From positions 1 to 64,000 of the IMG/VR virus record IMGVR_UViG_3300032236_000815: 64,000 bases of DNA; one strand, written 5' to 3'. The stretch is from a virus. The notes under the pieces are model-generated. The model was not told the DNA's origin. It ran no database searches and saw only the letters and a list, made by a program, of their open reading frames with translations. The stretch's first letter is position 1, and each line of letters opens with the position of its first letter. Shown in pieces: positions 24,901 through 50,000 of the stretch. Made by a program: the position numbers and the translations under genes.

Positions 24901-27900
24901 CGGACGTTTTGTTGCTATTGCAAGCAACGGTGTTGCGGTAGCTTACAGTTATAACCAAGGTACAACATGGTATTCAAGTACTAACGTTGGTAGCCCAGGT
25001 TTACCATATACACAAAACTGGACTAAAGTTCGTTACGGTGCAGGACAATTTATGGCGGTTGCCGCAAGTCCAAACGTAACATTAACTGCTACTGCCGCAA
25101 GTACTAACTTGATTACATTAAGCAGTACTGCTAACGTTAACGTTGGTAATACTTTAATTCCAACAAGTGTGACAGAAGCTACAACAGCTACAGCTACTAC
25201 TCACGCAACAGCAACTTCAGCATCTGGAGCAATTATTACTAACGGTGTATTGACAGCTAGCAATAGTACAGGCACATTAACAAACGGTATGTTGTTGACA
25301 AGCTCTGGTACAATCGTAGCAGGTACATACATTCAAAGTACAAATACTGCATCATTTAACAGTATGATTAATACTACATTGATGACAGTGTTCAGTGGAA
25401 CTGCGCCAAGTGTAGGTATGACAGTTACTGGTGCTGGTTATGCATCTGGTACATACGTAACTAACGTAAACGTTGCTACATTTACTGGATTTATCAGCAA
25501 CGGTAACTCGGGCGTGGCTGGTACACAGCTAACAGCCGCAACTATAACATCTGGTACACTAAACACATTCCAGTTAATTACTGGCGGTACTGTAAGTGCT
25601 AACACTTATATTAGTGGTAATACACAGTTTAACACAAACAACGGTAGCTTAACTGGTAGCACACTAACATTAGGCACTGTATCTGGTTCAGTTGCTTTAG
25701 GTCAAGCAGTTGCAGGTACTGGTATTCCAACTGGTACATATATAACTGCGTTTGGTTCAGGCGGCGCAGGCGGTAACGGTACATATACTGTAGCAGGTCC
25801 TGGTATTCCAGCAGCCGCAACAGGCACAATTTCTGTAGTTGGTATTGTTTATACATTAAACAACAGCCAAGCAGTTGGTACAGGTGCAAGCCAAACATCG
25901 TTTACAGCAACTAGCTATAACGTAACTAACAGTCAATCGGTTGGTTCTGCCGCATCGCAAATTACATCAACTGGTACTAGCTATGTATTAGCTGGCCCAG
26001 GTACTGCATCGACACAAACTCAAACATCTGCAACTATTACTGGTACTAACGATTTAGTAACTGTTGGTAGTACAGCAGGTATGACAGTTGGCGAACCAAT
26101 TGCGTTTACATACTTTACAATTAGTACAACGTTAACTGCTACAAACAGTTCAGGTAACCTGTTAACAGTTGCATCAACTAGCGGCTTTACAGTTGGCGGA
26201 AGTATTATATTCACAGCAGTAACACAAAGTGGTTTATTAACTGCAAGTGCAAGTACAGGTAACTTGTTAACATTGAGCAGTACTAGTGGTTTAGTTAACG
26301 GTGAGACAATTGTATTCACCAGCGTAACACAAGCTACTACATTAACAGCAACTACTCCAAGTGCATCAACATTTACTGGTTACATTGCAGGTACAACATT
26401 GACTGTTGGTACTGTTGGTTCTGGTACGATTGCAATTGGTCAAGTATTAACTGGATCAACAACAGTTGCTGGTACTTACATTGTTGCTAACATCAGTGGT
26501 TCTGGTAACGGTTCTACATGGCAAGTAAGCGTAAGTCAAACAGTTGGTAGCTCAGGTTCACTACAAGCATTGACTGGTACAGGTAACTTGATTACATTGA
26601 ACACATCAACTGGTATGGTTGTTGGTGAATCATTTGTAGTAGGTACAAACGTCGGTAACTTGTTAACATCAAGCACATACTACATTACTAAGATTATTGG
26701 TAACCAAATTGCAGTTGGTACAAGTTCAGGCGCAACTAGCGACTTTACAGTTTCTAATACAACTGGACAAAGCGTATCTGTAACTGCTGGTACAGTATTT
26801 GGCGGCATCACAAGTGGTACAACTTATTATGTAACAAGCATAAGTGGTAGCCAAATCACTATCAGTGCATCTTACTCTGGTGCTAACTTGACATTGACCA
26901 ACGCCGCTGGAGCATGGACTTATGCATCAGGCGCCGCTTTTGGTGGTATTACAAGTGGTACAACATACTATATCTTAAGTATTCCAACACCAGGTACAAA
27001 CGGTACAATTACTGTAAGTACAAGTTATGGTGGTAGCGTACAAGCTGTAACAAGTGCCAACGGTGCTTGGACAGCAGTTGAAGGTAGTGTGTTTGGTAAC
27101 TTAGTATCAGGTACAACTTATTACATTAGCGAGGTTATTGGTAGCACACAAATTGCGCTTTCAACATCTTACGGAGCAACTACTAACTTTACACTAGCAA
27201 GCCAAAACGGTAGCTGGAGTACAACAGCTGGTAGTATATTAGGTAACTTAGTATCTGGTAACACATACTACATTACAAGTATTAGCGGTAACAACGTAAC
27301 TGTAAGTACAAGTTTAGGCGGATCAACATTCAGCTTAATTAGCGATACAGGTGCATGGACTGCCGTAATTGGTAATGCGTATGCCGCTACAAGTTGGGAC
27401 GGTATTAACTGGAGTACACAACTATTAGGCACAAGCAATAGTTGGAGTGCATTGACATACGGTAACCCAATCAGTGCTACTTTAGGCGCTCAACCAACTT
27501 GGGTAACATTAAGTAATGCGGCCGGTACAACTACCGCAGTAAGTACAAGAGCAGGTGCTACACCATTAGGCCGTGTAACTGCTAAGAGTGGTGTAATTAC
27601 TGAAATCCGTATGATTGAACCAGGTAGCGGTTATGCAAAAGGTAACGTTTCTGCAACTACAATTACAACTAACGTGATTACAGTTGATGATACTACTAAC
27701 TTACAAAACAATCAACCAGTTACATTTAATCAAAGTTCAGGTGGTATTGTAGCTGGTACAGTATACTATGTTCTATACGGTAGTATTACAGTTAGTAGCT
27801 TCCAGATTACAACAGCCTCTGGTGGTACAACAGCAATATCGTTAACAACTAGTGCGCCAACTGGTATGATTTATCGTGCAGGTGCAATTGTCACACAGAT

Positions 27901-28831
27901 TGATCCTAACAAGGTATTGACTGCGGCAATTAACCCACGTCAAGGTGACGGTGCATTAGGTAACCCAAGCTTCGGTAATAGAGGTACAGGTAACTCTACT
28001 GCTACAGCAAGTACATCAGGTGACGGATATGCTGATTTATTCCAAACTGGCGGATACTTAAACGTGGCTAATTTGTTTAGTTTACCAACACCGGGATCAA
28101 ACGTACAGTTTGCAAGTATTCCAGGTGTATGGTATAAACTGGTTACAGTTACAAACGTATTAGGTATTGCTGGCGCATACACAGCACAGATTCAAATTAA
28201 TCCAAACATGAGTGCATTGTTGGCACCCCCACACAATGATATCATTACAACAAGATTAAAATACTCACAAGTACGTTTAACAGGACATGACTTCTTGTAT
28301 ATTGGTACAGGTAACCAAGTACAGACGAATTATCCAAACGTAATTACAACTAATGCAATCCAAGCTAACCAAACTTACAGTTTAGGCGGTGGTCGTGTGT
28401 TCTACACCAGTACTGACCAAGACGGTAACTTTAACGTTGGTGGATTGTTTGGAGTTCAACAAGCAACTGGTACAGCTAGTTTGAACGCTACAGCGTTTAA
28501 CTTAGCAGGTTTACAATCATTGCAGTTGGGCGCAGTTAGTTTAGGTGTTGGTTCAGCTACAGTTACTCAATTCAGTACTGACCCATACTTTACTGCTAAC
28601 AGCGATAATATTGTTCCAACCCAAAAGGCTATTAAGTCTTACATTACCAGCCAAATTGGTGGCGGAGCAAGTACATTGAACGTAAATACTTTGACAGCGG
28701 GTGTAATTTACTTGAGTGGTAATACAATTACAACTACATCAGGCGGACAAATCATTGTATCGGCAAAAATGAACTTTACAGGTGGCGTAGACGGAAGTCC
28801 AGTGTCGCTTGCATACTTTATGACAAAATAA
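15926..28831 (+). CDS. Giant tail-fibre/adhesin protein (4301 aa)
   Basis: A single 12.9-kb reading frame, paralogous to the 2651-residue gene. Residues 1-560: seven Trp-rich carbohydrate-binding-like repeats, some split by Ig-like modules. From about 955 a beta-helix opens ([20 protein letters not shown]) but is interrupted by about 1150 residues containing repeated helical units of the type RDAGxxxDAIxYDMxYGGN. The helix resumes near 2140 ([16 protein letters not shown], later [13 protein letters not shown]). About 2650-3060: propeller-like YGNGxFVAIA...STDGxTW repeats. About 3060-3820: many Thr/Ser/Gly modules with GTTYYVxxI signatures. The C-terminus ([26 protein letters not shown]) matches the sister. 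The frame is intact. Predicted long, multi-domain host-adhesion protein. Confidence 0.8.
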
Positions 28832-30071: not shown

Positions 30072-31742
30072 ATGCCAATTACAAGTACCGTTGGAGGAAC
30101 AGTTGAGTTAAAAGGACTTGGCGGCGCCCACCCAGGAGTTGCACCAGTAGATACTTCGGCTAGTACAGCCGCAGGCTCTATCGGAACTATGACAGTAACC
30201 GCAGGCGGCTGGGTAAGTTCAGGAACTACACCACCAGGCTATCCGTCAGGATATTATCCACTCAGCATTTCAAGTGTATCTGGAAGCCGTGTAGCATTTG
30301 ATCCGTTTGGTCAAGGCGCTATCACTTATACACTTCCAAACGCACTTAGCGGTACTATAACATCTGTTAGTGGCGCAACTGTAACCATCAGCGGATCTAC
30401 ATCCGGTATGGCTCAAGGTAGCGACTTTACAGTATATTTTTCAGGTGGTGGTACAAACGCTCAACAGTCTACATATGGTGGAGTATGGCCAGGAACATGG
30501 TATGTTGCCAGTGTTGTTAGCGGAAACCAAGTTACACTAGCAACTACTTACGGTAATGCTATTGCAAATAGTCCAACTACATTCCAAAGTTATAACACTA
30601 GCTATACAGTAAGCGGTTTGAATTATGTTAGCGGAGCATTACCTAGCGGATTGTCGTTTAACTCAAGTACAGGAACTGTAAGCGGAGCCATTTCTATTAA
30701 CTCAACTAGTAACCCAGGTTATAATAATGGAATGCTTTTAAACTATCCACCTAGCGGCGGCCTATACGACGGAAGAACTGTTCCAACAACCTCATACCAA
30801 TTTAAAGTACGTGCTACTGATGCGTTAGGTATTAATCAAACAGATCGTCAATATAGTATTAACTTGAGTGTGCCATATGCATATCGTCAAGTTATCACAA
30901 CAACTTACTTGCAAGCTGGTTATGCAAACAGCTCATGTTGGCAAACTACTTGCCGTACAACAAACTCGACAGACACTACTATCGACTTGGGTTCAAGTGG
31001 TTACCAGGAAGTTGCTCATAACTACCAGATGAGTGCTCACAACTTAACTCGTTCGTTCACATTTGGTGCAGGATCGGCTCACTGTGCCGCGGCAAGTAAC
31101 GTTATTGCATTTAATATGCGTACTGAAACTGCTAATACTGCGGGTTATTCACGTGGTTATCCAGTAAGTCAAAATAACTGTTCTACACTACGTCAAGAAT
31201 ATTACTATGCATGGTGTACAAGCCCAGCGGCAACTACAGTATATGAAATGAATTTGACAACCGAACAAGGTTATACTGCTCCTACTTCATGCCCAGGCCC
31301 TAATGCATTAACTGGAAATAGCTGGGACGGTTATGGTGTTTGGATGAGTCAAAACTACAACATGACTTACTCTAATCGAACAGTTACCAGCCGTGGCGGT
31401 ACTACTGTTACTGGTGATGCTCAAGGTAAAGTAATGGAAGGTAAGATTAACGCTTACGGTGGCCGTGAAGGTTGCCCAAGCACAAACTGGCGTAGAACTG
31501 TTCAAAGTACTAACACCAGTGTTGATGCGGCTGGCGCAAAACCTTACAACTCAGGCGAAGAAAACAACATGACTGGCCAAGATTGGGGATATTGTATCGG
31601 ATTCTACGGACCTGCAGGACACGTTAATACATCATTTAAATTTATCTATGCTACAGAAGCAGGGTATGGAACTAATGCTAGTTTGGAAGCTAAAGGCGGA
31701 CACGCAGGTAACAGTTCAGGAACCACATGTTGGCGAGATTAA
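30072..31742 (+). CDS. Fibre/adhesin protein with Ig-like domain and Cys-rich C-terminus
   Basis: A 556-residue protein. Residues about 170-215 (YTVSGLNYVSGALPSGLSFN, then STGTVSGA) match the putative-Ig He_PIG pattern, where GALPxGLxxNxxTGxxxG is diagnostic. The C-terminal 280 residues are non-repetitive and unusually rich in Cys, Trp and Tyr, including SSCWQTTCRTTNS, NNCSTLRQEYYYAWC, TSCPGPN, EGCPSTNW, WGYCIGF and a terminal TTCWRD. This looks like a folded, possibly disulfide-stabilised head such as a receptor-binding tip. It is the last gene of the fibre operon. Shine-Dalgarno AGGAGAA. No enzyme family recognised. Confidence 0.65.
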   Translation: MPITSTVGGTVELKGLGGAHPGVAPVDTSASTAAGSIGTMTVTAGGWVSSGTTPPGYPSGYYPLSISSVSGSRVAFDPFGQGAITYTLPNALSGTITSVSGATVTISGSTSGMAQGSDFTVYFSGGGTNAQQSTYGGVWPGTWYVASVVSGNQVTLATTYGNAIANSPTTFQSYNTSYTVSGLNYVSGALPSGLSFNSSTGTVSGAISINSTSNPGYNNGMLLNYPPSGGLYDGRTVPTTSYQFKVRATDALGINQTDRQYSINLSVPYAYRQVITTTYLQAGYANSSCWQTTCRTTNSTDTTIDLGSSGYQEVAHNYQMSAHNLTRSFTFGAGSAHCAAASNVIAFNMRTETANTAGYSRGYPVSQNNCSTLRQEYYYAWCTSPAATTVYEMNLTTEQGYTAPTSCPGPNALTGNSWDGYGVWMSQNYNMTYSNRTVTSRGGTTVTGDAQGKVMEGKINAYGGREGCPSTNWRRTVQSTNTSVDAAGAKPYNSGEENNMTGQDWGYCIGFYGPAGHVNTSFKFIYATEAGYGTNASLEAKGGHAGNSSGTTCWRD

Positions 31743-31780: not shown

Positions 31781-32644
31781 ATGATAGATAGAATTAAACA
31801 ATTTAATGATCGAAGTGTTGACGTTGATTTGCATTCAGATACTAGTATGATGTCTGATTCGGACAAACAGCATATTATTAAAGCGTTGAATAAAGAATGG
31901 ACTAACCCAAAATTTAAAATGCGTTGGTTCGTTGGGCAAGCCCAGGTAACTATCTATGCAAAATATCGTCAATTCTTAATGGAACTAAAAAGCCGCGAAG
32001 AAGGTATTGAAGATCTTGAGTATAAAATGGAACAATGGTCCATTGATATTGCTCGCCACGAGATGATTGCATCTGAAGCAGTTGACGATTTAGACAAAAG
32101 AATGGCAAAACTTGAAATTAAAAAGTTAAGTCGTGATTTAAGTCGTAGTCGTCGAATTGTAGAAGGTTGGTATTTAGAGCGTCAATTATATTGTGATTTA
32201 ATTAACGAATTTTTGGCAAGCCCCGAAGCACTACTTCCCGATAATAGTGGTAGAACTTATGCAGATATCATTAATACAGATGAAGAAGATGTATACGAAG
32301 AATTGCTATGGACTCATAGACTAGCAAAGCAAGCCGCTTGTGATTTAATGTTTTACGGAAAGATCAATAGCGGTAACATGGATGCTATTCTTAGTATGCA
32401 TCCAGACCAGCAAGCACAAACGTTTGCACTAGCAACAAATTTTAGTATGCAAGTTCAAAGCTATTTGCTAGAGTTACAAGATCAAGCACAAACACATGCT
32501 AGCCTAGGCAAACCATTTAACAACGGTGATCTAGCATTGCCCAGAGCATTTAACAGAGCTCCTCCAGCAGAAGACATTACTAAAATAGATAATCCTCAGC
32601 AATCAACAGAAATTAAGGATATGTTAAATGTATATAATATTTGA
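31781..32644 (+). CDS. Conserved T4-like phage protein, unknown function
   Basis: A 287-residue soluble, charged, mostly helical protein. The opening (MIDRIKQFNDRSVDVDLHSD, then ALNKEWTNPKFKMRWFVGQA) is a sequence I recognise in outline from other marine T4-like phages, but without a known role. Residues about 70-150 are heptad-like and probably form a coiled coil (REEGIEDLEYKMEQWSIDI...KKLSRDLSRSRRIVEGW). It overlaps the next gene by 17 nt. Position after the fibre genes suggests virion assembly or morphogenesis; this is inference. Confidence 0.6.
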   Translation: MIDRIKQFNDRSVDVDLHSDTSMMSDSDKQHIIKALNKEWTNPKFKMRWFVGQAQVTIYAKYRQFLMELKSREEGIEDLEYKMEQWSIDIARHEMIASEAVDDLDKRMAKLEIKKLSRDLSRSRRIVEGWYLERQLYCDLINEFLASPEALLPDNSGRTYADIINTDEEDVYEELLWTHRLAKQAACDLMFYGKINSGNMDAILSMHPDQQAQTFALATNFSMQVQSYLLELQDQAQTHASLGKPFNNGDLALPRAFNRAPPAEDITKIDNPQQSTEIKDMLNVYNI

Positions 32645-33182
32645 ATCTAGACGACACGACGAACCTAAAATTAAAGATTACGGTAAGTTTTGGTTTTATC
32701 TCATAGGCTATATTGCTCCAGAAGATGAAGCAAGTGTCGATTTATCAGATTTTAGTTATACTGAAATTTCCGAAGCTGTAGCAAATGCTGATTTATTAGC
32801 ACCATCGAATGACGGTGTTGCAGTTGTTAGACAGCTTAAAGAAAATATGACTCGTGCTGATTTTGTTGGTCCAACTGGTTTGAACTACGGCGACAATCAA
32901 GGTAAGAAAGAATATTACGTTTTAACAGACGAAGATAAAACTAATTGCTGTACTTTGTTAAGAGAAATAATGAAGTTACAAATTGCCAATCACGGCCATC
33001 GTAAAGATCCTATAGAATTAGAAGCACTAAAAACGGCTATTGATCAGTTGCCAACTAGCGATTTAAATTCTACTCAAATGTTTATGAGTACATATTTTGA
33101 ATTTGAAACTGCATATACTCAGTTTAAAACCAAACAACCAGTTATTAATATCAAATTCAAGTTTGATGGCGACGGTTTTTAA
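32628..33182 (+). CDS. Hypothetical protein
   Basis: A 184-residue soluble protein with mixed alpha/beta composition and no recognised motif. Its ATG lies within the end of the preceding gene, with AAGGA upstream, so the two are translationally coupled. Visible features are an acidic helix (SYTEISEAVANADLLAPSND) and a Lys-rich C-terminal strand (NIKFKFDGDGF). It is followed by a strong terminator, so it closes this transcription unit. No function proposed. Confidence 0.5.
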   Translation: MYIIFESRRHDEPKIKDYGKFWFYLIGYIAPEDEASVDLSDFSYTEISEAVANADLLAPSNDGVAVVRQLKENMTRADFVGPTGLNYGDNQGKKEYYVLTDEDKTNCCTLLREIMKLQIANHGHRKDPIELEALKTAIDQLPTSDLNSTQMFMSTYFEFETAYTQFKTKQPVINIKFKFDGDGF

Positions 33183-33204: not shown

Positions 33205-33243
33205 AAAAGAGATGCTAAACTAAGTAAGTTAGCATCTTTTTTT
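33205..33243 (+). terminator. Strong Rho-independent terminator
   Basis: A GATGCTA / TAGCATC stem, extended outward by A-T and G-T pairs, is followed by an uninterrupted run of seven or more T. It lies only about 10 bp before the first gene of the modification cassette. Confidence 0.85.
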
Positions 33244-33253
33244 ACGGCGGCGT

Positions 33254-34936
33254 ATGTCTAAAATCTTTAGTATTCCAATTAATCCAAAATTAAACGCTGA
33301 TCAATTCAATCAGTTTTATAAATTCTTAGCAGAATACAAAGACTATATCCGCGACATTTATTTCACCAGTAGAATCGCACCATTTATGCAAGACGCAATG
33401 GGCGATGTATTTGTTATCCACGAAGATCATTCTTATCTAATTGAAACAGCCTTGCATATTCAACGCACATTAGGGATTCCCGTTAGTGCTACATTTAACA
33501 ATATACAAGTTGCACCAACACAAAAGAATTTAGACATTTTCATTAGTAATTTTAAACCATTATATGATGCAGGAGTACGTAGTGCTACAATTCCTCATAC
33601 ACATTGGATGGCAACGGGACAGATTAAAGCGGCCTTTCCTGAATTATATGTTAAGAACACTATCCTAAGAGAAGTACATACTGCACAGGAAGTAGTTAAT
33701 TTAGCACAATACGGATTTGATTACATAAACTTAGACCGAGATCTAATGCGTGACCATGATAAATTACGAGAAATAAAACGAGCAAAAGAATATATTAAAA
33801 AAACATTAGGTAAGGATATTGCAATTAGTTTGCTTGCCAACGAAGGGTGTGCAGGCGGATGCAGTATGATGGAGGAACATTATCATTTTAACAATATACG
33901 TGAAGGTGTAAACAGTCCTCAATACTTCAATGATACAATCAGCCGTGTAAGTTGCCCTAATTGGAATGTACAAGATTCATCTATATTTCTTAAACAAGCT
34001 AATTTTACTCCTTGGAAAGCAGACTGGGACGAGTTTGTTAATGACCTTGGAATAGATAGCATTAAAATGCATGGAAGAGAAGGTATAACTAGGCTATTTG
34101 AAACTATGGAAATTGTTCGTAGATACGCTGCCGGGGAAGAATTTCTATATCCAGGATTTGAAAGATATTTAGAAGAAACTAATCTTGTTGAAAAACCTAT
34201 TAACATATGGCGCAACAAGATTAAAACATGTCGGTTTGAATGCTGGGATTGTAACTATTGCGACAAAGTATATGAAAAGAAATCTGATATAGAATTTTCA
34301 GAGTTGGTAAAACATGCCGCAGATTGTGTATTAAAATCAGGTGTACCCACTGTAAGAGTTGATGCTCCAGGATTGACTAGTGTTAGAGTACAAACGCTAT
34401 TGAACTTACTAGCGCAAGGTGTTAATACATACTTAGAAATAGGTGCCGCTCAAGGAGCAACATTCTGTGCAGTATTAAAAGACAATCCGATTCGTGCTAT
34501 TGCTGTTGATAACTGGAAACAAAATATCCAACCAGCAAATGGTCAAGTTACAATGCCGGCAAACTCTTTAAATACTTTTATTAAAAACTTTGAAAAATAT
34601 AAAGGCAATTCAAATATTAGCATTATTGATCAAGATTTATTTGAAGTAGATGTAACACCGTTTGCTGGAACAATTAAAATGATGTTCTATGACGGCCCGC
34701 ACGAAGAAGAAGTAACTAAACGTGCTATGATGCATTATGCTCCAGCATTAGAAAACGAGGCAATTGTAGTATTTGATGATGCAAACTGGCCGACAGTTGT
34801 TGCAGGTGCAAAAGCAGGTATTAAAGAAGCTGGGTTTGAAGTAGCATACGAAAAGTTAATGTTAAACGACTTAGAAGATCCTAATGCTTGGTGGAACGGA
34901 GTATATGTAACAGTTATTAGGAAAATAAATGATTAA
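33254..34936 (+). CDS. U32-family hydroxylase-like protein fused to SAM methyltransferase
   Basis: A 560-residue, apparently two-part enzyme. Residues about 1-320 look like the TIM-barrel U32 'peptidase' family, with the signature LLANEGCAGGC (C199, C203) and a further C234. Known U32 members (UbiU/UbiV, RlhA, TrhP) are 4Fe-4S, oxygen-independent hydroxylases. A Cys cluster follows at C326, C330, C333 and C336 (spacing x3, x2, x2). Residues about 385-560 are a class I SAM methyltransferase: motif I YLEIGAAQGATF (393-404), acidic VDN (418-420), FYDGPHEEE (478-486) and VVFDDANW. It heads a coupled operon; its only Shine-Dalgarno is weak (GGCGG). Domain assignment is by motif; the substrate is unknown. 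The C-x3-C-x2-C spacing also resembles radical-SAM enzymes. Confidence 0.65.
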   Translation: MSKIFSIPINPKLNADQFNQFYKFLAEYKDYIRDIYFTSRIAPFMQDAMGDVFVIHEDHSYLIETALHIQRTLGIPVSATFNNIQVAPTQKNLDIFISNFKPLYDAGVRSATIPHTHWMATGQIKAAFPELYVKNTILREVHTAQEVVNLAQYGFDYINLDRDLMRDHDKLREIKRAKEYIKKTLGKDIAISLLANEGCAGGCSMMEEHYHFNNIREGVNSPQYFNDTISRVSCPNWNVQDSSIFLKQANFTPWKADWDEFVNDLGIDSIKMHGREGITRLFETMEIVRRYAAGEEFLYPGFERYLEETNLVEKPINIWRNKIKTCRFECWDCNYCDKVYEKKSDIEFSELVKHAADCVLKSGVPTVRVDAPGLTSVRVQTLLNLLAQGVNTYLEIGAAQGATFCAVLKDNPIRAIAVDNWKQNIQPANGQVTMPANSLNTFIKNFEKYKGNSNISIIDQDLFEVDVTPFAGTIKMMFYDGPHEEEVTKRAMMHYAPALENEAIVVFDDANWPTVVAGAKAGIKEAGFEVAYEKLMLNDLEDPNAWWNGVYVTVIRKIND

Positions 34937-36455
34937 AAAAGTTAAAAAAATTATAGTATTTGGTGGCGGAACTAGCGGTTGGCTAACAGCCGCCTACTTA
35001 GTTAAAAACTTAACTATACCTGCAGAAGTTGTTCTTATCGAAGATGCAAGTGCAGGCCCTATTGGAGTAGGTGAAGGTACACAACCATTTACTGCTAGAT
35101 TTTTATACGAAGCTGGAATACCGCCTAAGGCATGGATGAAGTCTAGTCAAGCGGTATTTAAATACGGTGTAGAAATTACAGGATTTAACGAAGAACCATA
35201 TTTTGTCGATAACGATGTGCCAACAAATTGCATGATTGGTCAAGGGTTATTTGTCAGCGATTATTTTGTCGACAGACCATACAGCGAAGTACGAGATTGG
35301 CACCCAGCATATCAGCTTGCTAAAAATAATATTAGTAGCAAATACGACGATTACCTAGATGCTAATCACGGTTCGGGTCCTGATAGCTACGGTGCAGTAC
35401 ATTTTAATGCATTTGATATTATTAAAACAATCAAAGAAATCATACTAGATAAAATTACATACGTCGACACACGCATTTCAGATGTAAAACAAGATAAAGA
35501 TGGCATAACAAAACTAGTAGCACAGGACGGTAGCGAATATATTGCAGATTTATATTTGGATTGTACAGGTTTTTCTAGTTTACTATTAGAAAAGACACTA
35601 GGATCTCCGTTTACCAACTATTCGCCTTGGCTCCCATGCGATAGTGCTGTAGCAATGCCTACTGAATTTAAAGATAAGCGAGCAGAAATGCATCCTTATA
35701 CAAAATCAACAGCTATGACTTCTGGGTGGAGATGGACTATTCCTACCTTCACGCGAATAGGCAATGGTTACGTTTACAGTAGTAAACACATTACGCCCGA
35801 GCAAGCTGAGAAAGAGCTACGTGAAAGTATTGGCGAATTTAATGCTCCTGCAAAACATCTTAAAATGAAATGCGGAGTACACAAAGAAATCGCAGTTAAA
35901 AATGTGTGTGCTGTTGGACTAAGTGCTGGATTCATTGAGCCTTTAGAAGCGACTGGCATTACGTTTACAACAGCAACAGTACAAAGCATTGCAGAAATAT
36001 TAAACATCAACGGCAACGTGTGGAATGACTATGCAAGAACAAATCTAAATGCTGGATTTTACGAAATGACTACTGAAATTTTTGCATTTGTATGGGCACA
36101 CTATTATTTTAGTAGTAAAAATGATACACCATTCTGGCAAGATATTAGAAATATGAAAATTTCTGACTTACCACAAGAAGTACAAGACATATTAAATGTA
36201 TTTTTAGAAAGACCACTGCCGTTTATTTTCTTAAAACCAAACAGCATGTTCTGTACATTCCAATGGTTTACGATGTTACATGCTGGAGGCGCATATAAAA
36301 ATGTTACTAGTAGCTTAACTCCTAAGCAAAAAGAATACAGTAAATATTTCTTAGATTCTCACTCGGCTCGAGTCGAGCTGGCGAAGAAGATGTTTCCTAA
36401 TCAATACGAATATTTACAATCTTGGTACAGCGACTGGGAATCAGAGGAGATATAA
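34929..36455 (+). CDS. Flavin-dependent (tryptophan-type) halogenase
   Basis: A 508-residue protein of the Trp_halogenase family. It shows the FAD-binding GGGTSGW near residue 12, GVGEGTQP near 46, K78 within AVFKYGVEI (the position of the catalytic Lys79 of PrnA), the family signature WRWTIP at 267-272 followed by GYVYSS, and FIEPLEATG at 335-343 with E340 at the position of PrnA Glu346. All main catalytic elements are therefore present. The family uses FADH2, O2 and chloride or bromide to halogenate indoles and related aromatics. It overlaps the preceding gene by 8 nt; no flavin reductase is visible nearby. The substrate (free Trp, peptide or other aromatic) cannot be told. Confidence 0.85.
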   Translation: MIKKVKKIIVFGGGTSGWLTAAYLVKNLTIPAEVVLIEDASAGPIGVGEGTQPFTARFLYEAGIPPKAWMKSSQAVFKYGVEITGFNEEPYFVDNDVPTNCMIGQGLFVSDYFVDRPYSEVRDWHPAYQLAKNNISSKYDDYLDANHGSGPDSYGAVHFNAFDIIKTIKEIILDKITYVDTRISDVKQDKDGITKLVAQDGSEYIADLYLDCTGFSSLLLEKTLGSPFTNYSPWLPCDSAVAMPTEFKDKRAEMHPYTKSTAMTSGWRWTIPTFTRIGNGYVYSSKHITPEQAEKELRESIGEFNAPAKHLKMKCGVHKEIAVKNVCAVGLSAGFIEPLEATGITFTTATVQSIAEILNINGNVWNDYARTNLNAGFYEMTTEIFAFVWAHYYFSSKNDTPFWQDIRNMKISDLPQEVQDILNVFLERPLPFIFLKPNSMFCTFQWFTMLHAGGAYKNVTSSLTPKQKEYSKYFLDSHSARVELAKKMFPNQYEYLQSWYSDWESEEI

Positions 36456-36886
36456 TGTTAAACCAATTAAATTCAAATCAATATACAATATACACAGTAC
36501 AAACTCGAGGCAAGAAAAACGATGCTTATGAAGATTCAAAAATTGACAGAGATCGTTTTAAATTACGTCGATGGGTTGAAGCATTGTTAGCAGATAGGGA
36601 AGTTATCATGTTCTGGACTGAAGAGGATACAGATTACATGATGGTTGGAACTACAAAAGTTAATCCTGGTGAAGGATTTGCTGAGTTGCCAAAAGATTTG
36701 CCAACAATAAAATGTAACGTAAACGGCAAAGAAGTTGACGAGCCGCAATTTATTACTTTTCACTGCGTACCTGGAAGGGAAATTGCTACAGTCGATGTTG
36801 ATCACATAACAAAGTTCATAGTTAGTATTGAAGGTCTTGTAGAATTAACACAAAAAGTACTAAGGGAAGAAGCAAATGGTTCGTGA
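36455..36886 (+). CDS. Hypothetical protein inside the modification operon
   Basis: A 143-residue protein if the ATG at 36455 is used. This start is preferred over an upstream ATG at 36422 because it has a GAGGAG Shine-Dalgarno and overlaps the halogenase stop codon (TAATG). It is mixed alpha/beta and acidic with a hydrophilic N-terminus (SNQYTIYTVQTRGKKNDAYE) and no family match. Its place between a halogenase and an oxygenase and its coupling on both sides suggest an accessory or substrate-presenting role, which is inference only. Confidence 0.55.
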   Translation: MLNQLNSNQYTIYTVQTRGKKNDAYEDSKIDRDRFKLRRWVEALLADREVIMFWTEEDTDYMMVGTTKVNPGEGFAELPKDLPTIKCNVNGKEVDEPQFITFHCVPGREIATVDVDHITKFIVSIEGLVELTQKVLREEANGS

Positions 36887-37448
36887 TGATTTTATTGGTA
36901 TCTTTGACAATGTACTCACTCCTGCCGAATGTGGTGAGTTAATTGATTATTTTGTAAAAATGCGAAAACTAAATTTAGTTTACAAACGTCCAGATGCTCC
37001 TCATGAAAAGAAGGACGAAACAGTATATCCGTTCGAACCAGATTCTTTACATTTTGTTGGCACAAATCCAGTAGTACAAAGTATTATGGAAAAAGTCTGG
37101 AAGTGTTATAACGAATATTGTGATAATTTCAGTATCCTGACACTAAAAAATGAACAGGGTGTAACTGGTATGCGTGTACAACGTACCCAGCCAGGCGGTG
37201 GATACCATCAGTGGCATTATGAAAATCAAGGAATAATGCATTCAAATAGATTTTTAGTTTTTCAAATCTATCTTAATACAGTTACAGAAGGCGGCGAGAC
37301 TGAATTCTTGTATCAAAAAACTAGAGTAAATGCACAGCAAGGCAGGGTGTTGCTATGGCCAGCGGCATTTACACATACACATAGAGGAAATCAACCATTA
37401 AGCGGCGACAAATATATTGTTACCGGATGGATTGAATACTTAAACTAA
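36876..37448 (+). CDS. Fe(II)/2-oxoglutarate-dependent oxygenase (HxE type)
   Basis: A 190-residue protein with the double-stranded beta-helix pattern of prolyl-4-hydroxylase-like oxygenases. The metal site appears as H114 and E116 in GYHQWHYEN, with the distal His in AAFTHTHRG (H167 or H169). K179 in GDKYIVTGW is the likely 2-oxoglutarate-binding base, and GGETEF lies between them. The usual HxD is HxE here. The family hydroxylates peptides or small molecules using O2, Fe(II) and 2-oxoglutarate. The start overlaps the previous gene by 11 nt. Related small oxygenases are common in marine T4-like phages; their targets are largely unknown. Confidence 0.8.
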   Translation: MVRDDFIGIFDNVLTPAECGELIDYFVKMRKLNLVYKRPDAPHEKKDETVYPFEPDSLHFVGTNPVVQSIMEKVWKCYNEYCDNFSILTLKNEQGVTGMRVQRTQPGGGYHQWHYENQGIMHSNRFLVFQIYLNTVTEGGETEFLYQKTRVNAQQGRVLLWPAAFTHTHRGNQPLSGDKYIVTGWIEYLN

Positions 37449-37449
37449 C

Positions 37450-38631
37450 ATGAAAAAACGTCTCGGAATTATCGGAGTAGGATCAGCAGGTATACTAAGT
37501 CTAAGTTACTTCTGTGCCCACTTGGATAATACATGGGAAGTTGTTAGTATTAACGATCCTAACGGTAAAATATTAGGAATTGGAGAAAGTTCTAACCCGA
37601 GTTTTGTTTCAGCATTAGAAGCAGGGCTTGGATTTAATATGTATGACGATATTAAAGAGCTAGATGCTACATATAAATTTGGCACAATGTGGAAAACTTG
37701 GAGAGACAAAGAGTTTATATCTCCACTGCTAGGTGGTAATACTGCTATACATTTTAACAATTTTAAATTAAAAGAATTTGCTATTCCTAGGTTACATCAA
37801 CGTTGGCCGCATAAGTTTAGCGAGCTATCGGGTAAGGTAGAAGAACTTATCGGCCACGCTTCTCATGTTGATGTTGTTGTAGACGGCGTTAATCATCAGT
37901 ACAATTATATTATAGATTGCAGAGGTTTCCCTACAGAATGGGACGATTATAATATTTGTGAAAATATGCCAGTTAATCATGCACTAGTACACAACAAAGA
38001 TCTACCCGGCGATTGGATGTACACAGGACACCGTGCCCACAAAAATGGTTGGATGTTTGAAATCCCGTTAACTAACAGACAAAGCTATGGATATTTGTTT
38101 AACAATAACATAACTACAGTAGAAGATGCTAAGAAAGATTTTAGTCAAGAAATCGATGTGCCAGTTGATCAGCTACAAAATATAGAATATAAGTTTCAAA
38201 GTTTTTATACTACTAAACTTTTAGATGGTAGAATTTTAAAAAATGGAAATAGAGCTATTTTCTTTGAACCTATTAGTGCTACTAGTTTGTTTATGTATGA
38301 TCAAGCTAATCGAATATTCCTTAGCTACTTAAATCACAGTATTGAAACTCCTGAAAGAGTTAATAAAGAATTTATAAATGTAGCAAGTGCATTGCGCGAG
38401 TTAATTTGCTGGTTCTATCACGGTGGCAGTACATATGATACACCGTTTTGGCAAGCAACGAAAGAAAAAACTCGACCAGTAGTAGAAAATAGTCAGATGA
38501 TGAAAATGTTAAAACATAGTTATGCTGAGTGGATTGCTAAAGATAGTCCTATGTATGCTGACAAATTTTTCTTCGAACCGCATTTAATGTTACAACTAGA
38601 CAAAAACTTTCAATATAATTATTTCAAATGA
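37450..38631 (+). CDS. Divergent flavin-dependent halogenase-like protein
   Basis: A 393-residue, shorter relative of the 34929 gene. The Rossmann FAD site (GIIGVGSAGI), GIGESSNP and a Lys at position 76 (ATYKFGTMW, matching PrnA Lys79) are kept. The WxWxIP signature is altered to WMFEIP (201-206). The EPLExTG element is FEPISATS (272-279), with Ser276 where the catalytic Glu is expected. It may therefore be a monooxygenase, an enzyme with altered chemistry, or an inactive partner of the first halogenase. It starts 1 nt after the preceding stop codon and has no clear Shine-Dalgarno, consistent with coupling. Confidence 0.7.
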   Translation: MKKRLGIIGVGSAGILSLSYFCAHLDNTWEVVSINDPNGKILGIGESSNPSFVSALEAGLGFNMYDDIKELDATYKFGTMWKTWRDKEFISPLLGGNTAIHFNNFKLKEFAIPRLHQRWPHKFSELSGKVEELIGHASHVDVVVDGVNHQYNYIIDCRGFPTEWDDYNICENMPVNHALVHNKDLPGDWMYTGHRAHKNGWMFEIPLTNRQSYGYLFNNNITTVEDAKKDFSQEIDVPVDQLQNIEYKFQSFYTTKLLDGRILKNGNRAIFFEPISATSLFMYDQANRIFLSYLNHSIETPERVNKEFINVASALRELICWFYHGGSTYDTPFWQATKEKTRPVVENSQMMKMLKHSYAEWIAKDSPMYADKFFFEPHLMLQLDKNFQYNYFK

Positions 38632-39245
38632 CATATAAATTATCAAATGACCCATTCGTAACTGCCGCAACTATGCCGCCTTTTGCTAAACTAGGGCAAG
38701 TGTTTACACCTGAAGAGATGAATCGCATGTGTGCATATTTTACAAGCAAAGGTACGGAGCCTGGACTAATCGGAAAAACTGACGGTGATACCATGGATAC
38801 TGGGTTACGTAAGTCGGGTATTAAAATGCACGAATATACTGCTGATACTGCTTGGATTTTTGAAAGATTGAATACTGCAATATCCGATGGCAACAGTCAT
38901 TTTTTCAGATTTAATATTGTAGGATACGACTACTTACAATATACAGAATATAATGCACCAGACGAACGCTATGGATATCACACAGATATGCCTTATGGTC
39001 CTAATCATAATTTAGAAAAACACTTAATGCGTAAACTGTCTTTTAGTTTAATCTTAAGTGACCCATCAGAGTACGATGGCGGCCAATTTGAGTTTATGAT
39101 CGAGTCCGATAAGCCCTGGGCCGTGCCACAAAATAAAGGAGATTTGATTATATTTCCTAGTTGGTTACTACATGAAGTTACACCGGTAACAAGAGGTCTG
39201 AGAAAAAGTCTTGTTGGTTGGTGCTTAGGACCTAAATTTGTATGA
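38628..39245 (+). CDS. Fe(II)/2-oxoglutarate dioxygenase, PKHD/PiuC-like
   Basis: A 205-residue prolyl-4-hydroxylase-type oxygenase. The facial triad is H118 and D120 (YGYHTDMPYG) and H182 (SWLLHEVTPV), with R192 as the 2-oxoglutarate anchor. The segments LSFSLILSDPSEYDGGQFEF and KGDLIIFPSWLLHEV are the standard DSBH strands of this family. PiuC-type proteins are cytoplasmic hydroxylases of unresolved substrate. Its ATG overlaps the preceding stop codon (ATGA) and there is no Shine-Dalgarno, so translation should depend on the upstream gene. Confidence 0.85.
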   Translation: MTYKLSNDPFVTAATMPPFAKLGQVFTPEEMNRMCAYFTSKGTEPGLIGKTDGDTMDTGLRKSGIKMHEYTADTAWIFERLNTAISDGNSHFFRFNIVGYDYLQYTEYNAPDERYGYHTDMPYGPNHNLEKHLMRKLSFSLILSDPSEYDGGQFEFMIESDKPWAVPQNKGDLIIFPSWLLHEVTPVTRGLRKSLVGWCLGPKFV

Positions 39246-39820
39246 TAAAAAGATTTCCACTTTATCATAGTGATTTATTTGTTATAGAAAATGTTGGATC
39301 TGACGAACAGGTAGACGCATTAGTTAAACAAATTGCTATTGAAAAGCAAACAACACCTTCGGATGAGTTTACAAACAGAGGATGCTGGCGAAGTACAAAA
39401 TGGTGGAACGATGTTGACTGGTTATGCCAAGCAGTTTGTACGTTAGCCGAAACAGCATCTACCCATTATAAAGAAATTGATTCTAATTTTGAAAAAGGAT
39501 CTAAATTTAAACTAGGCATGTGGACTAATGTTAACGATCCTGGTAGCAAAAATGTCATGCACAATCATGTAAGAGATGTTTTTGCCGCTTGCTATTATAT
39601 ACAATCAGAAGATACTGGCGATTTAAGACTAGTAAATGGAAGTAATCTAATGCAAGATCTAAATCCATCTGCTCCTTTTAGTAGAGATTTCAGATTTGCT
39701 CCAAAAAATCGCACACTTGTATTATGGCCTAGTTGGGTTCCACATGAAGTAGAAACCAATTTAAGTAATAAACAACGTATCAATATAGCGTTCAATGTAA
39801 ATTTCGACACCGACTCCTAG
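39242..39820 (+). CDS. Putative Fe(II)/2-oxoglutarate oxygenase (2OG-FeII_Oxy_5-like)
   Basis: A 192-residue protein matching the pattern of the family with an HxH metal motif: H107 and H109 in NVMHNHVRD, YYIQ strand, NRTLVLWPSWVPHEV with H168, and R179 in RINIAFN. It is the third oxygenase in the operon and from a different subfamily than the other two. The start overlaps the preceding stop codon (ATGA). It is the last gene of the cassette, followed by a late promoter and a terminator. Catalysis is inferred from motif conservation; substrate unknown. Confidence 0.75.
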   Translation: MIKRFPLYHSDLFVIENVGSDEQVDALVKQIAIEKQTTPSDEFTNRGCWRSTKWWNDVDWLCQAVCTLAETASTHYKEIDSNFEKGSKFKLGMWTNVNDPGSKNVMHNHVRDVFAACYYIQSEDTGDLRLVNGSNLMQDLNPSAPFSRDFRFAPKNRTLVLWPSWVPHEVETNLSNKQRINIAFNVNFDTDS

Positions 39821-39831: not shown

Positions 39832-39835
39832 AACG

Positions 39836-39859
39836 GCACTATAATTATAGTGCTTTTTT
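39836..39859 (+). terminator. Terminator after the modification operon
   Basis: An 18-bp perfect palindrome GCACTATAATTATAGTGC is followed by six T. It closes the enzyme operon. Confidence 0.85.
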
Positions 39860-39870
39860 AAGGAGAAACG

Positions 39871-40917
39871 ATGGAGTTTATAACTTCGGTCCTGTTAAAG
39901 GACATTACATACTTGTGGATGATCTTCTTCATTATGATCACCGCTGGACTAGCTAAAGAGTACGCTCTATTTGCCCCAGCGTTTGCCTATGTTAGAAATA
40001 CTTTCCGCAGTAACAAGTTCGTAGTTGTTATCCTAAGTGCGATTGGTGGTATTTTACCAATCGAAGGTCGAGTTACAGTCTCAGCAGGTTTGCTGGATAC
40101 TGTAGCACCTAAAGAAGGTCCTGGTCGTGAGAAACTAGGCATTGTAGACTATCTAGCCAACCATCACTATTACATGTGGTCACCGTTAGAGAAAACTGTA
40201 ATCCTACCTATCGCGGCATTTGGATTGACTTATGGTGCTTTCCTCGGTCTAGTTGCTCCGTTGCTAATCACTAGTTTGTTGTTTATCAGCATCTACATCT
40301 GGACACAAGTCAAAGATGAAGAGCTAGTTATTACACCGGGAAACTTTAAATTGAGTGCTGTTCTACGTAACGTGCTTCCAATGTTTATTGCCCTCGGCGT
40401 TTACATTTGGGGCGGCGGCGAAGAGCATGTATTTCCAATTTTTGGTTTACTAACTTTATACTATGTAATCATCACACAACAATGGAACTACAAGAAATTG
40501 TTGGGCTATGTTCGTTGGGATGTACTAGTATGGGTAGGTGCAGTTATTATCTTAGGTAACTATTTCAAATCACATAACGGAGCATTTCTAGAGCTAATCA
40601 AGAGCGTAGGGTTGAACCCTCATACTTTTGCTGGTATGCTAGCGATATCAGTTATTGGATTTGTCATTAGCTTCTTAATGGGTAGTTCAGGTAAGTTTAT
40701 TGCTGTTGCTGTTTTAATGGCACAAGTATTTGGCGTAGAATATTTCTTATGGTTCTTTGCTATTGACTTTACTGGATATCTGTTAAGCCCTACGCATAAA
40801 TGTGTTATGATTGGTAACCGTTATTTCGGCACACCAGTTGGCACTTATTATAAAGCCCTAGGTTTATGGGGCGCACTACTTCTGCTTGTAAGCGGAGTAG
40901 TAACATTTTTGATTTAA
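39871..40917 (+). CDS. DUF401-family integral membrane transporter
   Basis: A 348-residue polytopic protein with about nine or ten hydrophobic segments. Two conserved blocks fit the DUF401 permease family: GGILPIEGRVTVSAGLLD, then VDYLANHHYYMWSPLEK in the first half, and MGSSGKFIAVAVLMAQ, then GYLLSPTHKCVMIGNRYFG in the second. The halves are probably inverted repeats, as in ion-transporter-superfamily carriers. The substrate of DUF401 proteins is not established; organic anions are a guess from related carriers. It would sit in the host inner membrane. It has its own late promoter and shares an operon with an outer-membrane protein 11 nt downstream. A transporter is unusual cargo for a T4-like phage and is probably host-derived. 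Confidence 0.75.
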   Translation: MEFITSVLLKDITYLWMIFFIMITAGLAKEYALFAPAFAYVRNTFRSNKFVVVILSAIGGILPIEGRVTVSAGLLDTVAPKEGPGREKLGIVDYLANHHYYMWSPLEKTVILPIAAFGLTYGAFLGLVAPLLITSLLFISIYIWTQVKDEELVITPGNFKLSAVLRNVLPMFIALGVYIWGGGEEHVFPIFGLLTLYYVIITQQWNYKKLLGYVRWDVLVWVGAVIILGNYFKSHNGAFLELIKSVGLNPHTFAGMLAISVIGFVISFLMGSSGKFIAVAVLMAQVFGVEYFLWFFAIDFTGYLLSPTHKCVMIGNRYFGTPVGTYYKALGLWGALLLLVSGVVTFLI

Positions 40918-40928
40918 AGGAATCACAT

Positions 40929-41519
40929 ATGAAGAAAATCTTCGCAATCTTGGCCTTGGCCGCAACAACATCTGCATTTGCAGACAGTGGTGTTAGTTTT
41001 GAATTTGAACGCGAGCGCGGTACAGCATCTCCAAACACAATGTCAAACACTATTAAAGTAGCACCATATGTTAAACTAGATAACGGTGTTAAACTTGATT
41101 TGCAATTCGGCGGTAGCCGTGATGATGGTCAAGTATCTGGTAACAACAATGCGCTTGAAAACACAATTGAAGCTCGTGCTCAAAGAATGTATGAAGTGTA
41201 CCCAGGCTTGAAGCTTGGTGCCCGTGTTGGTATCGGCCAAGTAGTTAACGGCACAAACTCAGCAGGCAAGACTGTTGACTTTGGATACTATACAATTACA
41301 CCGAAGGCTGAATATGCCTTCAATGATAAGTTGAGCGCATTGGCTAGCTTCCGTTTCCGTAATGGTTTTAGCGATAGTGACAACTATCTAACACGTACAG
41401 CTAAAGCTGGTCTAGGTTACAATGTAACTAAGAAAGACACAGTTGAAGTTCAATACTTCCAAAAACGTGGCGATCAAAGCGTTAACGGTGTTGAATTAGC
41501 TTACTCACGTAGTTTCTAA
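40929..41519 (+). CDS. Outer-membrane beta-barrel (porin-like) protein with signal peptide
   Basis: A 196-residue protein if started at 40929, where AAAGGA precedes the ATG. An upstream in-frame ATG at 40866 would bury the signal peptide and overlap the transporter gene. Residues 1-18 are a classical Sec signal (MKKIFAILALAATTSAFA, cleavage after AFA). The mature part alternates amphipathic strands with short turns (about 8-10 strands), and the chain ends in SRSF, the terminal-Phe signature recognised by the BAM complex. It is therefore expected in the outer membrane of a Gram-negative host. Possible roles are solute entry together with the DUF401 carrier, or altering the host surface. Confidence 0.8.
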   Translation: MKKIFAILALAATTSAFADSGVSFEFERERGTASPNTMSNTIKVAPYVKLDNGVKLDLQFGGSRDDGQVSGNNNALENTIEARAQRMYEVYPGLKLGARVGIGQVVNGTNSAGKTVDFGYYTITPKAEYAFNDKLSALASFRFRNGFSDSDNYLTRTAKAGLGYNVTKKDTVEVQYFQKRGDQSVNGVELAYSRSF

Positions 41520-46948: not shown

Positions 46949-46969
46949 GCTTATATAAGCGTTGTTTTT
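46949..46969 (+). terminator. Palindrome with T-rich tail
   Basis: The 12-bp palindrome GCTTATATAAGC is followed by GTTGTTTTT, just before the gp18 promoter. It probably ends gp1 transcription. Confidence 0.45.
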
Positions 46970-46978
46970 CCAAAATAC

Positions 46979-46986
46979 CATAAATA
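46979..46986 (+). promoter_or_regulatory. Putative late promoter box (CATAAATA) for gp18
   Basis: The predicted start near 46992 gives a leader of about 27 nt with a GGAGA Shine-Dalgarno before the ATG at 47019. Confidence 0.65.
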
Positions 46987-47018
46987 CATTAAGAACATGT
47001 ACTCATGGAGATAACACA

Positions 47019-50000
47019 ATGGCTCAATTAAGTTCACCAGGAATTAGCGTAACAGTCGTAGACGAATCGTTCTACACACCGGCAGCTCCTGGAACCGTAC
47101 CCCTTATTATAGTTGCTTCTCAAGAAAATAAGAGCAACAGTGCTGGAACAGGAACAGCACCAGGAACACTAAAAGCAAACGCTGGTAAAGTATATCTACT
47201 AACTAGCCAAGCAGATTTAGGCGCAACATTTGGAGTTCCATACTTCCAAACTGATGCAGAAAATAACCCAGTACACGCTGGCGAATTAAACGAATATGGT
47301 CTAGAGGCGGCTTACAGCTTCTTAGGAGTAAGCAATCGTGCATACGTTGTACGTGCTGACTTAGATACTAAGCAACTTATTGCTAGAACAAGTGCTCCAA
47401 CAAGTCCTCCAGCAGATGGTACTTTCTGGTTTGATACAGCAGATACACATTTTGGTGTATTTGAATGGAATAGTGCATCAGCAACTACAACAGGCGGTCA
47501 AATTTTTACTGACCAAGGAACAGCTGGTAGCCTAAACGTTATTACAAATATTGCGTATGTCAATAACAGTACATACGCTCCGTTACCAAGTTACGGAAAA
47601 ATTGGCGACTATGCAGTTGTTTCAGTAACTAACTGGAACAAGTTATGGTTCAAGAAATATCAAACTAATACATCTGCAGGTACATGGGTTGAAGTAGGTA
47701 CTTCAAACTGGGCCGCAAGTTGGCCAACAATCACAGCCGCTGCCGCTCCAAGTAGCATTAGCACTGGCGACACATTGATTATTAATGGTACAACAGTTAC
47801 TGGTGTAAACACAGTTAGCGCATTAGCAACTGCTATTACTACAGCATTGTCAAGCAGTGGTATTACTGCCGCAGTTATTAACGGTTACTTACAGATTTAT
47901 TCAAACGGTACTGCTAGCTACAATTCACACGTAGCAGGTAGCTTAACTGTTTCTGGTACTTTAACAGGAACTGTAAATGCTCCAGGTGTACTAGGTCTTG
48001 TATCTGGTTCATATCTATGCCCAGCACTAACAGTTAGTCCACACTATCAAGTTCCGTTGTACGGCTACTACGACCAAAGTGGTTACATCGGTGGCAACCC
48101 AACTGGTTCAATTTGGGTTAAGACTACAAGTATTAACTTGGGTGCAAACTGGTTTATTAAGAAATACAATGCGGCTTCTAGCACATGGATTTTACAATCA
48201 GCTCAGTTATTTGCAAACAACCAATCAGCATTAGCTGTATTAGACCCAACAGGCGGCGGACAAAACTTGCCAGTTGGTGCAGTTTATGTAAAATACAATG
48301 ATGCAGAAAGTGCAACTCCATTGGCTAACTTTAAGATTTATGGACGTACTGGAACTGGTGCTACTAATATTGTATCTAATATTATTGGTGCAAGCACCTT
48401 TGGTACTGCTACTAACACATTTACAATTAGCCAAAGCGTTCCAGGGTCAAGTACATTAACTAGTCCAATAACTGTAACATTTAATACAACTGGCGTAGCT
48501 TTAAGCGATGCTCAAGCACTATTAACTGCGTTCACATCTGTAGTAACTGACCCAAATGTTACTGCTAGTCTAAACACAGTATCAAATACAATCACAATCA
48601 CACACGTGGGCGGTGGAGATATTCGTTTAGTAGACGGTACAAATACTCCGTTGAGCAAGATTTTCTCAACAAGTACAACAGCTAACTACTACTTAGATCC
48701 AACTGGTGTATCTAATCACTACATTGCTACTCAGTGGGCCGCAACAGTTAATGGTTCAGGCTTTGCAGTTGCTAGCTTAACACCTCCAACTAATACTCCA
48801 ACAGATGGTACATTATGGTATGACAACAATTTAGAAGATGTTGATATCATGGTACACAACGGCACACACTGGGTTGGTTATTTAAACTATACTCAGAACC
48901 AAGCAGGTGGCACAACAACAGATCCAATGGGTCCAATTACTAGTGCTACACAACCAACAACACAAAGCGATGGTACTCCATTAGCTAACGGTGACTTATG
49001 GATCGACACTAGCGATATTGAAAACTATCCAATCATCCACAAGTACAACTACTTGACTAAGAAGTGGGTTGTAATTGATAACACTGACCAAGTAACAGGT
49101 AACGGTGTTTTATTTGCGGATGCTCGCTGGTCTAATAACAGTACAAGCAATCAGATTCAAACTGGTGCAGGTACTCCTGATTCTATCGTGTCATTGCTTT
49201 CAAGCGATTACTTAGACTTTGATGCTCCAGATCCTGCACTATATCCAAAAGGTATGTTGCTATGGAACTTACGCCGTTCAGGATTTAACGTTAAGCGTTA
49301 TGTAGTTAACCATGTTGATACAACAGCATTTAACGTTCGCAAGAGCAACGAAATTCAAACTAACTACTATCCAGATCGTTGGGTAACAGATGCTCCTAAC
49401 GATGTTATGGGTGTTGGACAATTTGGACGTAAAGCTCAACGTGCTGTAGTATTAAAAGCACTAAACGCATTGATCCAAGGTAATCAAAATATTCGTCAAC
49501 CTGACACAGTTATCTATAACTTGTTAAGTTGCCCAGGATACTTAGAAACAGTTAGCGAACTAATTGGTCTAAACACTGACAACGGACAAACAGCGTTTAT
49601 CGTTGCAGACAGTCCAGCTCGTTTAACACCAGATGCTACAACATTAAGCAACTGGGGTAATAACACAATGGGCGCGGCAGTTGACGGTCAAGACGGTTTA
49701 ATTGCTACAGATCCATACACAGCAGTTTACTATCCATGGGGTTATACAACAGACTTGTTAGGTAATAACATTGTTGTTCCTCCAAGTCACATTATGTTAC
49801 GTACAATCGCTCTAAGCGATAACGTTTCTTATCCATGGTTTGCACCAGCTGGTGTACGTCGTGGCGGTGTAACAAATGCAAGTAGCGTAGGTTATGTAGA
49901 CGGACAAACTGGCGAGTTCCGAACAGTTGCATTGAACGTTGGACAACGTGACACTTTAGCCGCAATCCATGTAAACCCAATTACATACATTGCAGGTACA

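Follow-up and report, generated by a model that had tools for sequence, protein, structure and literature searches.

Among the accessory genes of marine T4-like phages that lack an explanation, those for viral halogenases and Fe(II)/2-oxoglutarate (2OG) oxygenases rank with the commonest; they are usually read as genes of host metabolism. The present analysis concerns a cassette of seven genes (A to G, positions 33254-39820) encoding homologues of both, found in a stretch of viral DNA of 64,000 nucleotides, hereafter the window, which belongs to an IMG/VR virus record of 88,584 bp (IMGVR_UViG_3300032236_000815). The closest known arrangements come from cyanophages. In syn9, S-RIM44 and P-TIM40, genes for flavin-dependent halogenases (FDHs) and 2OG oxygenases form FDH-FDH-2OG clusters directly 3' of fibre or fibre-assembly genes, and in S-CREM1 an FDH gene and many 2OG genes lie 3' of a collagen-like protein gene. 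As in the cassette, halogenase genes are followed by overlapping 2OG genes, and the S-RIM44 cluster sits just 5' of gp13. Unlike the cassette, these clusters do not include the fusion gene A in the region shown, and the FDHs of syn9 are only 27-28% identical to the product of gene B. A first-pass annotation of this DNA had described the enzyme families as known only singly in marine phages, a view contradicted by these GenBank clusters. FDH and 2OG genes beside fibre genes are already present in the databases, functionally undescribed in those parts of the literature that were searched, and the present composition appears to be a variant of this kind.

At the level of single enzymes, the product of B shares the Trp_halogenase family and a phage origin with VirX1 of cyanophage Syn10 (PDB 6qgm), but scores nearer to bacterial tryptophan 5-halogenases than to VirX1 (220 vs 189 bits). 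VirX1 has reportedly been examined as a lone enzyme with small aromatic substrates, and we know of no natural substrate for it. The fusion gene A corresponds to cyanophage T4-GC 354 (phrog_1458), to which it is 42-45% identical and with which it shares its place after GC 351-353, and the order fibre-p-A is found also in distant cyanophages; unlike A in the window, the inspected cyanophage copies are not adjacent to an FDH gene. Halogenation of a ribosomal peptide by FDHs, in pathways that also carry out modifications such as proline hydroxylation, is known from MibH and SrpI, the latter of which brominates a C-terminal Trp (PMC12615548). The pathways for such ribosomally synthesised and post-translationally modified peptides have a dedicated precursor (SrpI needs its leader), whereas no peptide that could serve as precursor, with a leader and a recognition element, was recognised here; the comparison with MibH and SrpI is by sequence score alone. 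The cyanophage literature lists genes of this type as accessory metabolic genes, with speculation about 2-oxoglutarate use or antibiotics (PMC3037559, PMC2984593, PMC10452541), and in the parts of the open-licence literature searched no description of a cassette of this kind, or of fibre modification, was found.

Linkage of the cassette to a fibre locus

The genes of the cassette, its flanking signals and the genes immediately 5' of it are the following.

30072..31742, + strand: gene f, fibre-like protein (phrog_1417; weak match to the Ig-like He_PIG) with C-terminus SSGTTCWRD; candidate target
31781..32644, + strand: gene p (phrog_1409), homologue of cyanophage T4-GC 353, co-distributed with A
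32628..33182, + strand: gene q, overlapping p
~33210-33244 (approximate ends), + strand: intrinsic terminator 5' of the cassette, hairpin and T-run, -15.3 kcal/mol, z = -2.9
33254..34936, + strand: gene A (phrog_1458), Cys-rich TIM-barrel domain (~1-345) and class I MT24-type O-methyltransferase-like domain (~372-557)
34929..36455, + strand: gene B, flavin-dependent halogenase FDH1, with K78, E340 and GWRWTIP intact
36455..36886, + strand: gene C, small protein of 143 amino acids, predicted beta-rich fold (confident model)
36876..37448, + strand: gene D, Fe(II)/2OG oxygenase (phrog_61), H114-x-E116 ... H167/H169 ... K179
37450..38631, + strand: gene E, short divergent FDH homologue of 393 amino acids, Lys76 kept, Glu replaced by Ser276, GWMFEIP
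38628..39245, + strand: gene F, Fe(II)/2OG oxygenase, PKHD/PiuC-like, H118-x-D120 ... H182 ... R192
39242..39820, + strand: gene G, Fe(II)/2OG oxygenase, TIGR02466/2OG-FeII_Oxy_5-like, H107/H109 ... H168 ... R179
39835-39854, + strand: intrinsic terminator 3' of the cassette, -11 kcal/mol, z = -2.4

The cassette may be a module of the f-p-q-A locus that modifies a virion protein, either f or p, a reading to which we give a probability of roughly 45%. It is favoured because A travels with p and because FDH and 2OG genes recur beside fibre genes in the absence of A, so that this chemistry appears tied to the fibre locus even apart from A. The linkage of A was followed in 111 non-redundant A loci, obtained from three scans with A as the query. 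Among the loci with enough upstream sequence (45 with an FDH gene, FDH+, and 37 without, FDH-), both f and p lie 5' of A in 45/45 and 36/37, and q in 45/45 and 28/37, respectively. In phage records, where the co-distribution was compared by tallies and sampled records, the number of matches out of 50,697 is 123 for A and likewise 123 for p, with identical tallies of organism and host. In the records compared, p lies 5' of A at a distance of about 0.2 kb or less; the S-ShM2/S-RIM14 group is the exception, with 2OG and other genes intervening. The position of the cassette next to the fibre genes, as noted in the first pass, is confirmed, and the fibre-p-A order is kept in relatives.

With regard to the genes 3' of A, the FDH gene comes next in 40 of the 56 FDH+ loci, overlapping A or at most 20 nt from it, and in the other 16 a single 2OG-sized gene lies between them. 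On the tree of A, which comprises 96 rows (53 FDH+ and 43 FDH-), the adjacency of A and FDH changes once, by a single origin or loss, and is then retained in 53/53 FDH+ rows. Neighbours were counted within 6.6 kb in 52 FDH+ and 38 FDH- loci: at least one 2OG gene is present in 51/52 of the former vs 7/38 of the latter, and at least two in 43/52 vs 0/38. The common core appears as A-(2OG)-B-2OG-cluster 4-C, where C is present in 36/52 FDH+ loci and cluster 4 (~245 amino acids, phrog_7084, no Pfam match; e.g. L050:14377-15159) in 43/52. The window lacks cluster 4 and carries the additional genes D, E and F, which occur in few relatives.

In the window, the seven open reading frames are all on the + strand. 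A and B overlap by 8 nt, B and C by 1 nt and C and D by 11 nt; D and E are 1 nt apart, and the E/F and F/G junctions are overlaps of 4 nt (ATGA). The start of C is taken as the ATG at 36455, which is preceded by AGAGGAG, and not as the TTG at 36422. The hairpin at ~33210-33244 was absent from the automatic terminator scan. The tight, co-directional packing and the flanking terminators reported in the first pass are thus both confirmed. Every cassette gene is under purifying selection, with dN/dS of ~0.02-0.12 against two close relatives (L011 and L012), figures that are only approximate because dS is 1.2-2.8 and near saturation. Together with the order kept in relatives, these values indicate that the cassette is more than chance.

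The same data bear on the explanation that the genes have no common target, the interval between the fibre genes and gp13 being an insertion hot-spot in which 2OG, FDH and other accessory genes with separate substrates accumulate. Gene content does vary widely, as the rarity of D, E and F and the distribution of cluster 4 illustrate, and petE and gnd lie within this interval in S-ShM2. Insertion hot-spots of T4-like cyanophages are also documented (PMC3037559). On the other hand, translational coupling extends all along the cassette, the presence of FDH predicts that of 2OG genes, and the core A-(2OG)-B-2OG-C is stable across the FDH clade while A itself falls to ~55-60% identity to A of the window; taken together, we consider a mere hot-spot unlikely. 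The first pass had read tight coupling as a sign of one pathway with one target: the coupling is conserved, whereas the single pathway and target are still putative.

Enzymes of the cassette

By every sequence criterion applied, B is a flavin halogenase. It matches Pfam Trp_halogenase with an E-value of 7.6e-93 and has the GxGxxG FAD motif, the catalytic Lys and Glu, and GWxWxIP, all invariant in 56/56 cassette FDHs save W269, which is W or F; the catalytic pair and GW[W/F]xIP are thus retained throughout. E also matches Trp_halogenase, but has Ser276 in place of the catalytic Glu and WMFEIP in place of WxWxIP. It belongs to a subfamily of short proteins, also found in S-SSM7 and S-SSM5, in which WxWxIP is altered and only the S-SSM5 copy retains the catalytic Glu. 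E is therefore a family homologue by sequence, and halogenation by E is doubtful; of the two halogenase homologues announced in the first pass, both stand as homologues, but the data do not support two functional halogenases.

These features of B are pertinent to a metabolic role, in which the enzymes, jointly or separately, would modify a small aromatic host metabolite such as tryptophan or indole, a quinone, a pigment precursor or a signalling molecule. B scores highest against halogenases of free tryptophan (220 bits for a tryptophan 5-halogenase, compared with 189 for VirX1 and 154 for 5uao_A, also a tryptophan 5-halogenase), and the cyanophage enzyme VirX1 is said to act on small aromatics. 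Reviews of cyanophages treat such genes as metabolic, and the DUF401 membrane protein H, encoded 3' of the cassette, could be a transporter. Conversely, the strict companion of A is p, a gene of the virion locus, and the cassette as a whole lies in the fibre locus. It contains no gene that would supply a precursor, and no flavin reductase was found in the 88.6-kb record, which may be a fragment. A further, weak point is that the alignment of B with PrnA stops near residue 423, before a region of PrnA that we take to bind the amino-acid group of Trp. On balance, a metabolite as the substrate seems unlikely.

The three Fe(II)/2OG oxygenases predicted in the first pass were all confirmed, although their subfamilies (phrog_61, PiuC/PKHD-like and TIGR02466/2OG-FeII_Oxy_5) are only partly different. 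D and F have the HxD/E...H triad and the distal basic residue. G matches PF13759 (E-value 7.5e-16) and conserves H107/H109, H168 and R179, but has no HxD/E at the expected place. The key catalytic residues, whose broad loss in homologues had been named in the first pass as counter-evidence, are intact in B, D and F and are kept in the 56 cassette FDHs. The predicted fold of C had no significant match in the PDB. As a side observation on 2OG genes elsewhere, proteins annotated as phrog_274 'DNA endonuclease V' and phrog_1644 'minor coat protein' in cyanophage clusters and IMG/VR relatives (L009, L005, L006 and L206) look like misannotated proteins of the 2OG-oxygenase type; since they also match 2OG-FeII_Oxy_3 or DUF6445, the 2OG clusters of cyanophages exceed their annotation.

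A belongs to phrog_1458, which it matches over its full length (E-value 9e-165). The methyltransferase part of the first-pass description holds: PF13578 is matched in 21/21 homologues, placing the C-terminal domain with the MT24/COMT-like class I O-methyltransferases, and the motifs ExG (S-adenosylmethionine-binding), YDGPH (acidic) and DDAN (DDxN type) are intact in A and near-invariant among its relatives, being degenerate in L074 and L190. In L190, which is on the same contig as L074, the motifs are lost (YNGPT, NNAN), the N-terminal domain is intact and the fibre ends in FGRD. The N-terminal domain carries seven near-invariant cysteines in the pattern E197-x-C199-x3-C203-x30-C234 and C326-x3-C330-x2-C333-x2-C336, and its AF2 model (mean pLDDT 80.6) has a barrel-like strand order.

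The label of peptidase U32 (TrhP/RlhA/UbiUV) given to this domain in the first pass is not supported. PF01136 was searched at E<=10 in 21 homologues and matched in none, and in HHalign the domain reached a probability of 3.3% against 40 U32 domains, compared with 1-12% for unrelated TIM barrels against each other. The published U32 motifs CX6CX15CX3/4C and E-x7-C-x6-C are replaced by E-G-C-x3-C-x30-C. Only the fold and one motif are compatible with U32: the fold matches of the model include the U32 structure 5d88 (E-value 1.1e-5, rank 28, with MTHFR placed higher), and GIDSIKMHGRE resembles the KIEGR-like motif of U32, GVxSxKIEGR.

The question matters for a possible role in RNA modification, in which A, as a one-polypeptide analogue of TrhP and TrmR, would make 5-methoxyuridine in tRNA or rRNA, and the remaining enzymes would act on RNA or be unrelated. 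TrhP forms 5-hydroxyuridine (ho5U) using prephenate, and the O-methyltransferase TrmR then methylates the product; Phytophthora and Phaeodactylum have a TrhO-TrmR fusion (PMC6599085). Like TrhP, RlhA or UbiU-UbiV taken together with TrmR (YrrM), A combines a Cys-containing TIM-barrel-like domain, with 5d88 among its fold matches, and an O-methyltransferase domain, for which YrrM/TrmR is the top match among PDB profiles (weak, E-value 0.011). Unlike TrhP, RlhA and UbiU-UbiV, it fails the Pfam, profile and cysteine comparisons described above. Furthermore, no tRNA genes were found within the window, and the linkage of A is to the fibre and p genes, which makes an RNA target highly improbable.

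Relatives of A in cellular genomes with informative neighbours were also sought. Among 84,980 genomes, A occurs on two contigs of metagenome-assembled genomes, L090 (PBPE01000072.1) and L091 (DANB01000001.1), binned as Dehalococcoidia and Euryarchaeota, which are probably misbinned phage DNA. Its near absence from cellular genomes makes A look specific to phages and not like a metabolic gene taken from a host.

Fibre or partner protein as a possible target

If the cassette serves to modify a virion protein, it would be transcribed late, as a single operon, and its products would act on f, the fibre, or on p, its partner, before or during assembly. Side chains would be hydroxylated by the Fe/2OG oxygenases, which consume O2 and 2-oxoglutarate, B would halogenate an aromatic side chain with reduced flavin from the host, and A would add and/or O-methylate a hydroxyl group, with E and C as partner, binding or divergent enzymes. 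The outcome might be a chemically diversified fibre surface, altering stability or receptor binding. Co-transcription, all of the reactions, their target and any benefit are what we infer. Since peptide-acting FDHs such as MibH and SrpI are known (PMC12615548), halogenation of a protein is plausible as chemistry. The full form of the proposal, in which phage enzymes hydroxylate, halogenate and O-methylate their own fibre or fibre-partner protein, and thus a virion protein halogenated by phage enzymes, appears rather unlikely as it stands. The linkage of A to p and of the cassette to the fibre offers virion modification as a specific alternative to host metabolism and names f and p as the proteins to examine. 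If true, it would account for orphan genes that have long lacked an explanation and would yield halogenases that act on proteins.

Several points weigh against a virion target. Late genes of T4-like phages are generally syntenic, and the neighbourhood alone therefore does not give the substrate. The single change of FDH on the tree makes the linkage of the cassette one well-kept event, not many, and the existence of FDH-less loci means that A does not need FDH. The matches of p are distant (25-32% identity, 62-79% coverage). FDH genes are also found far from fibre genes, adjoining gp33 in S-SSM5 and near replication genes in S-B64. Finally, the C-terminal Trp of the fibre is missing in 8/53 FDH+ loci, and on the tree it changes nine times and FDH once, never together. 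A scattering of the genes in related phages, which the first pass had named as counter-evidence, is confined to cyanophages: there A and FDH mostly stand apart, by 20 kb in S-ShM2, for example.

The C-terminal Trp was considered because f frequently ends in ...W-R-D. An apparent tracking of FDH by this residue (...SWRD) in the first 80 loci failed with 111 loci and the tree. A C-terminal Trp beside Arg or Lys is present in f in 45/53 FDH+ and 16/43 FDH- loci, and FDH-less loci with a WRD end exist; given that Trp changes nine times without a change of FDH, the pattern reflects phylogeny and not covariation, and it was rejected as independent evidence for the fibre as the target, although the residue may still be one. 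Two other aromatic residues that seemed specific to FDH+ loci were likewise set aside: Y285 of p (94% vs 0%) is near the end that overlaps q and is probably an effect of the coding overlap, and W22 of q (95% vs 0%) rests on the same single FDH event.

Neighbouring genes and phage background

Beyond the putative cassette operon lies one further linked gene.

39871..40917, + strand: gene H, DUF401/TIGR00529-like membrane protein

H follows A within 6.6 kb in 27/38 FDH- loci and the cassette in 15/52 FDH+ loci, and is directly 3' of A in many FDH-less relatives; it is possibly a linked transporter. The description of the phage as T4-like finds support in the predicted gp13-like, UvsX-like, SSB, sheath, tube and terminase proteins; the nearest named terminases, at 52%, come from PA5oct-type jumbo phages of Pseudomonas. 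Two very large genes lie 5' of the cassette, at 7943-15898 (2651 amino acids, tail-fibre match) and 15926-28831 (4301 amino acids), and a tail sheath protein of 1137 amino acids is encoded at 46962-50375. The small protein encoded at 40926-41519 has a signal-peptide-like N-terminus and porin-like repeats, and could be an outer-membrane beta-barrel.

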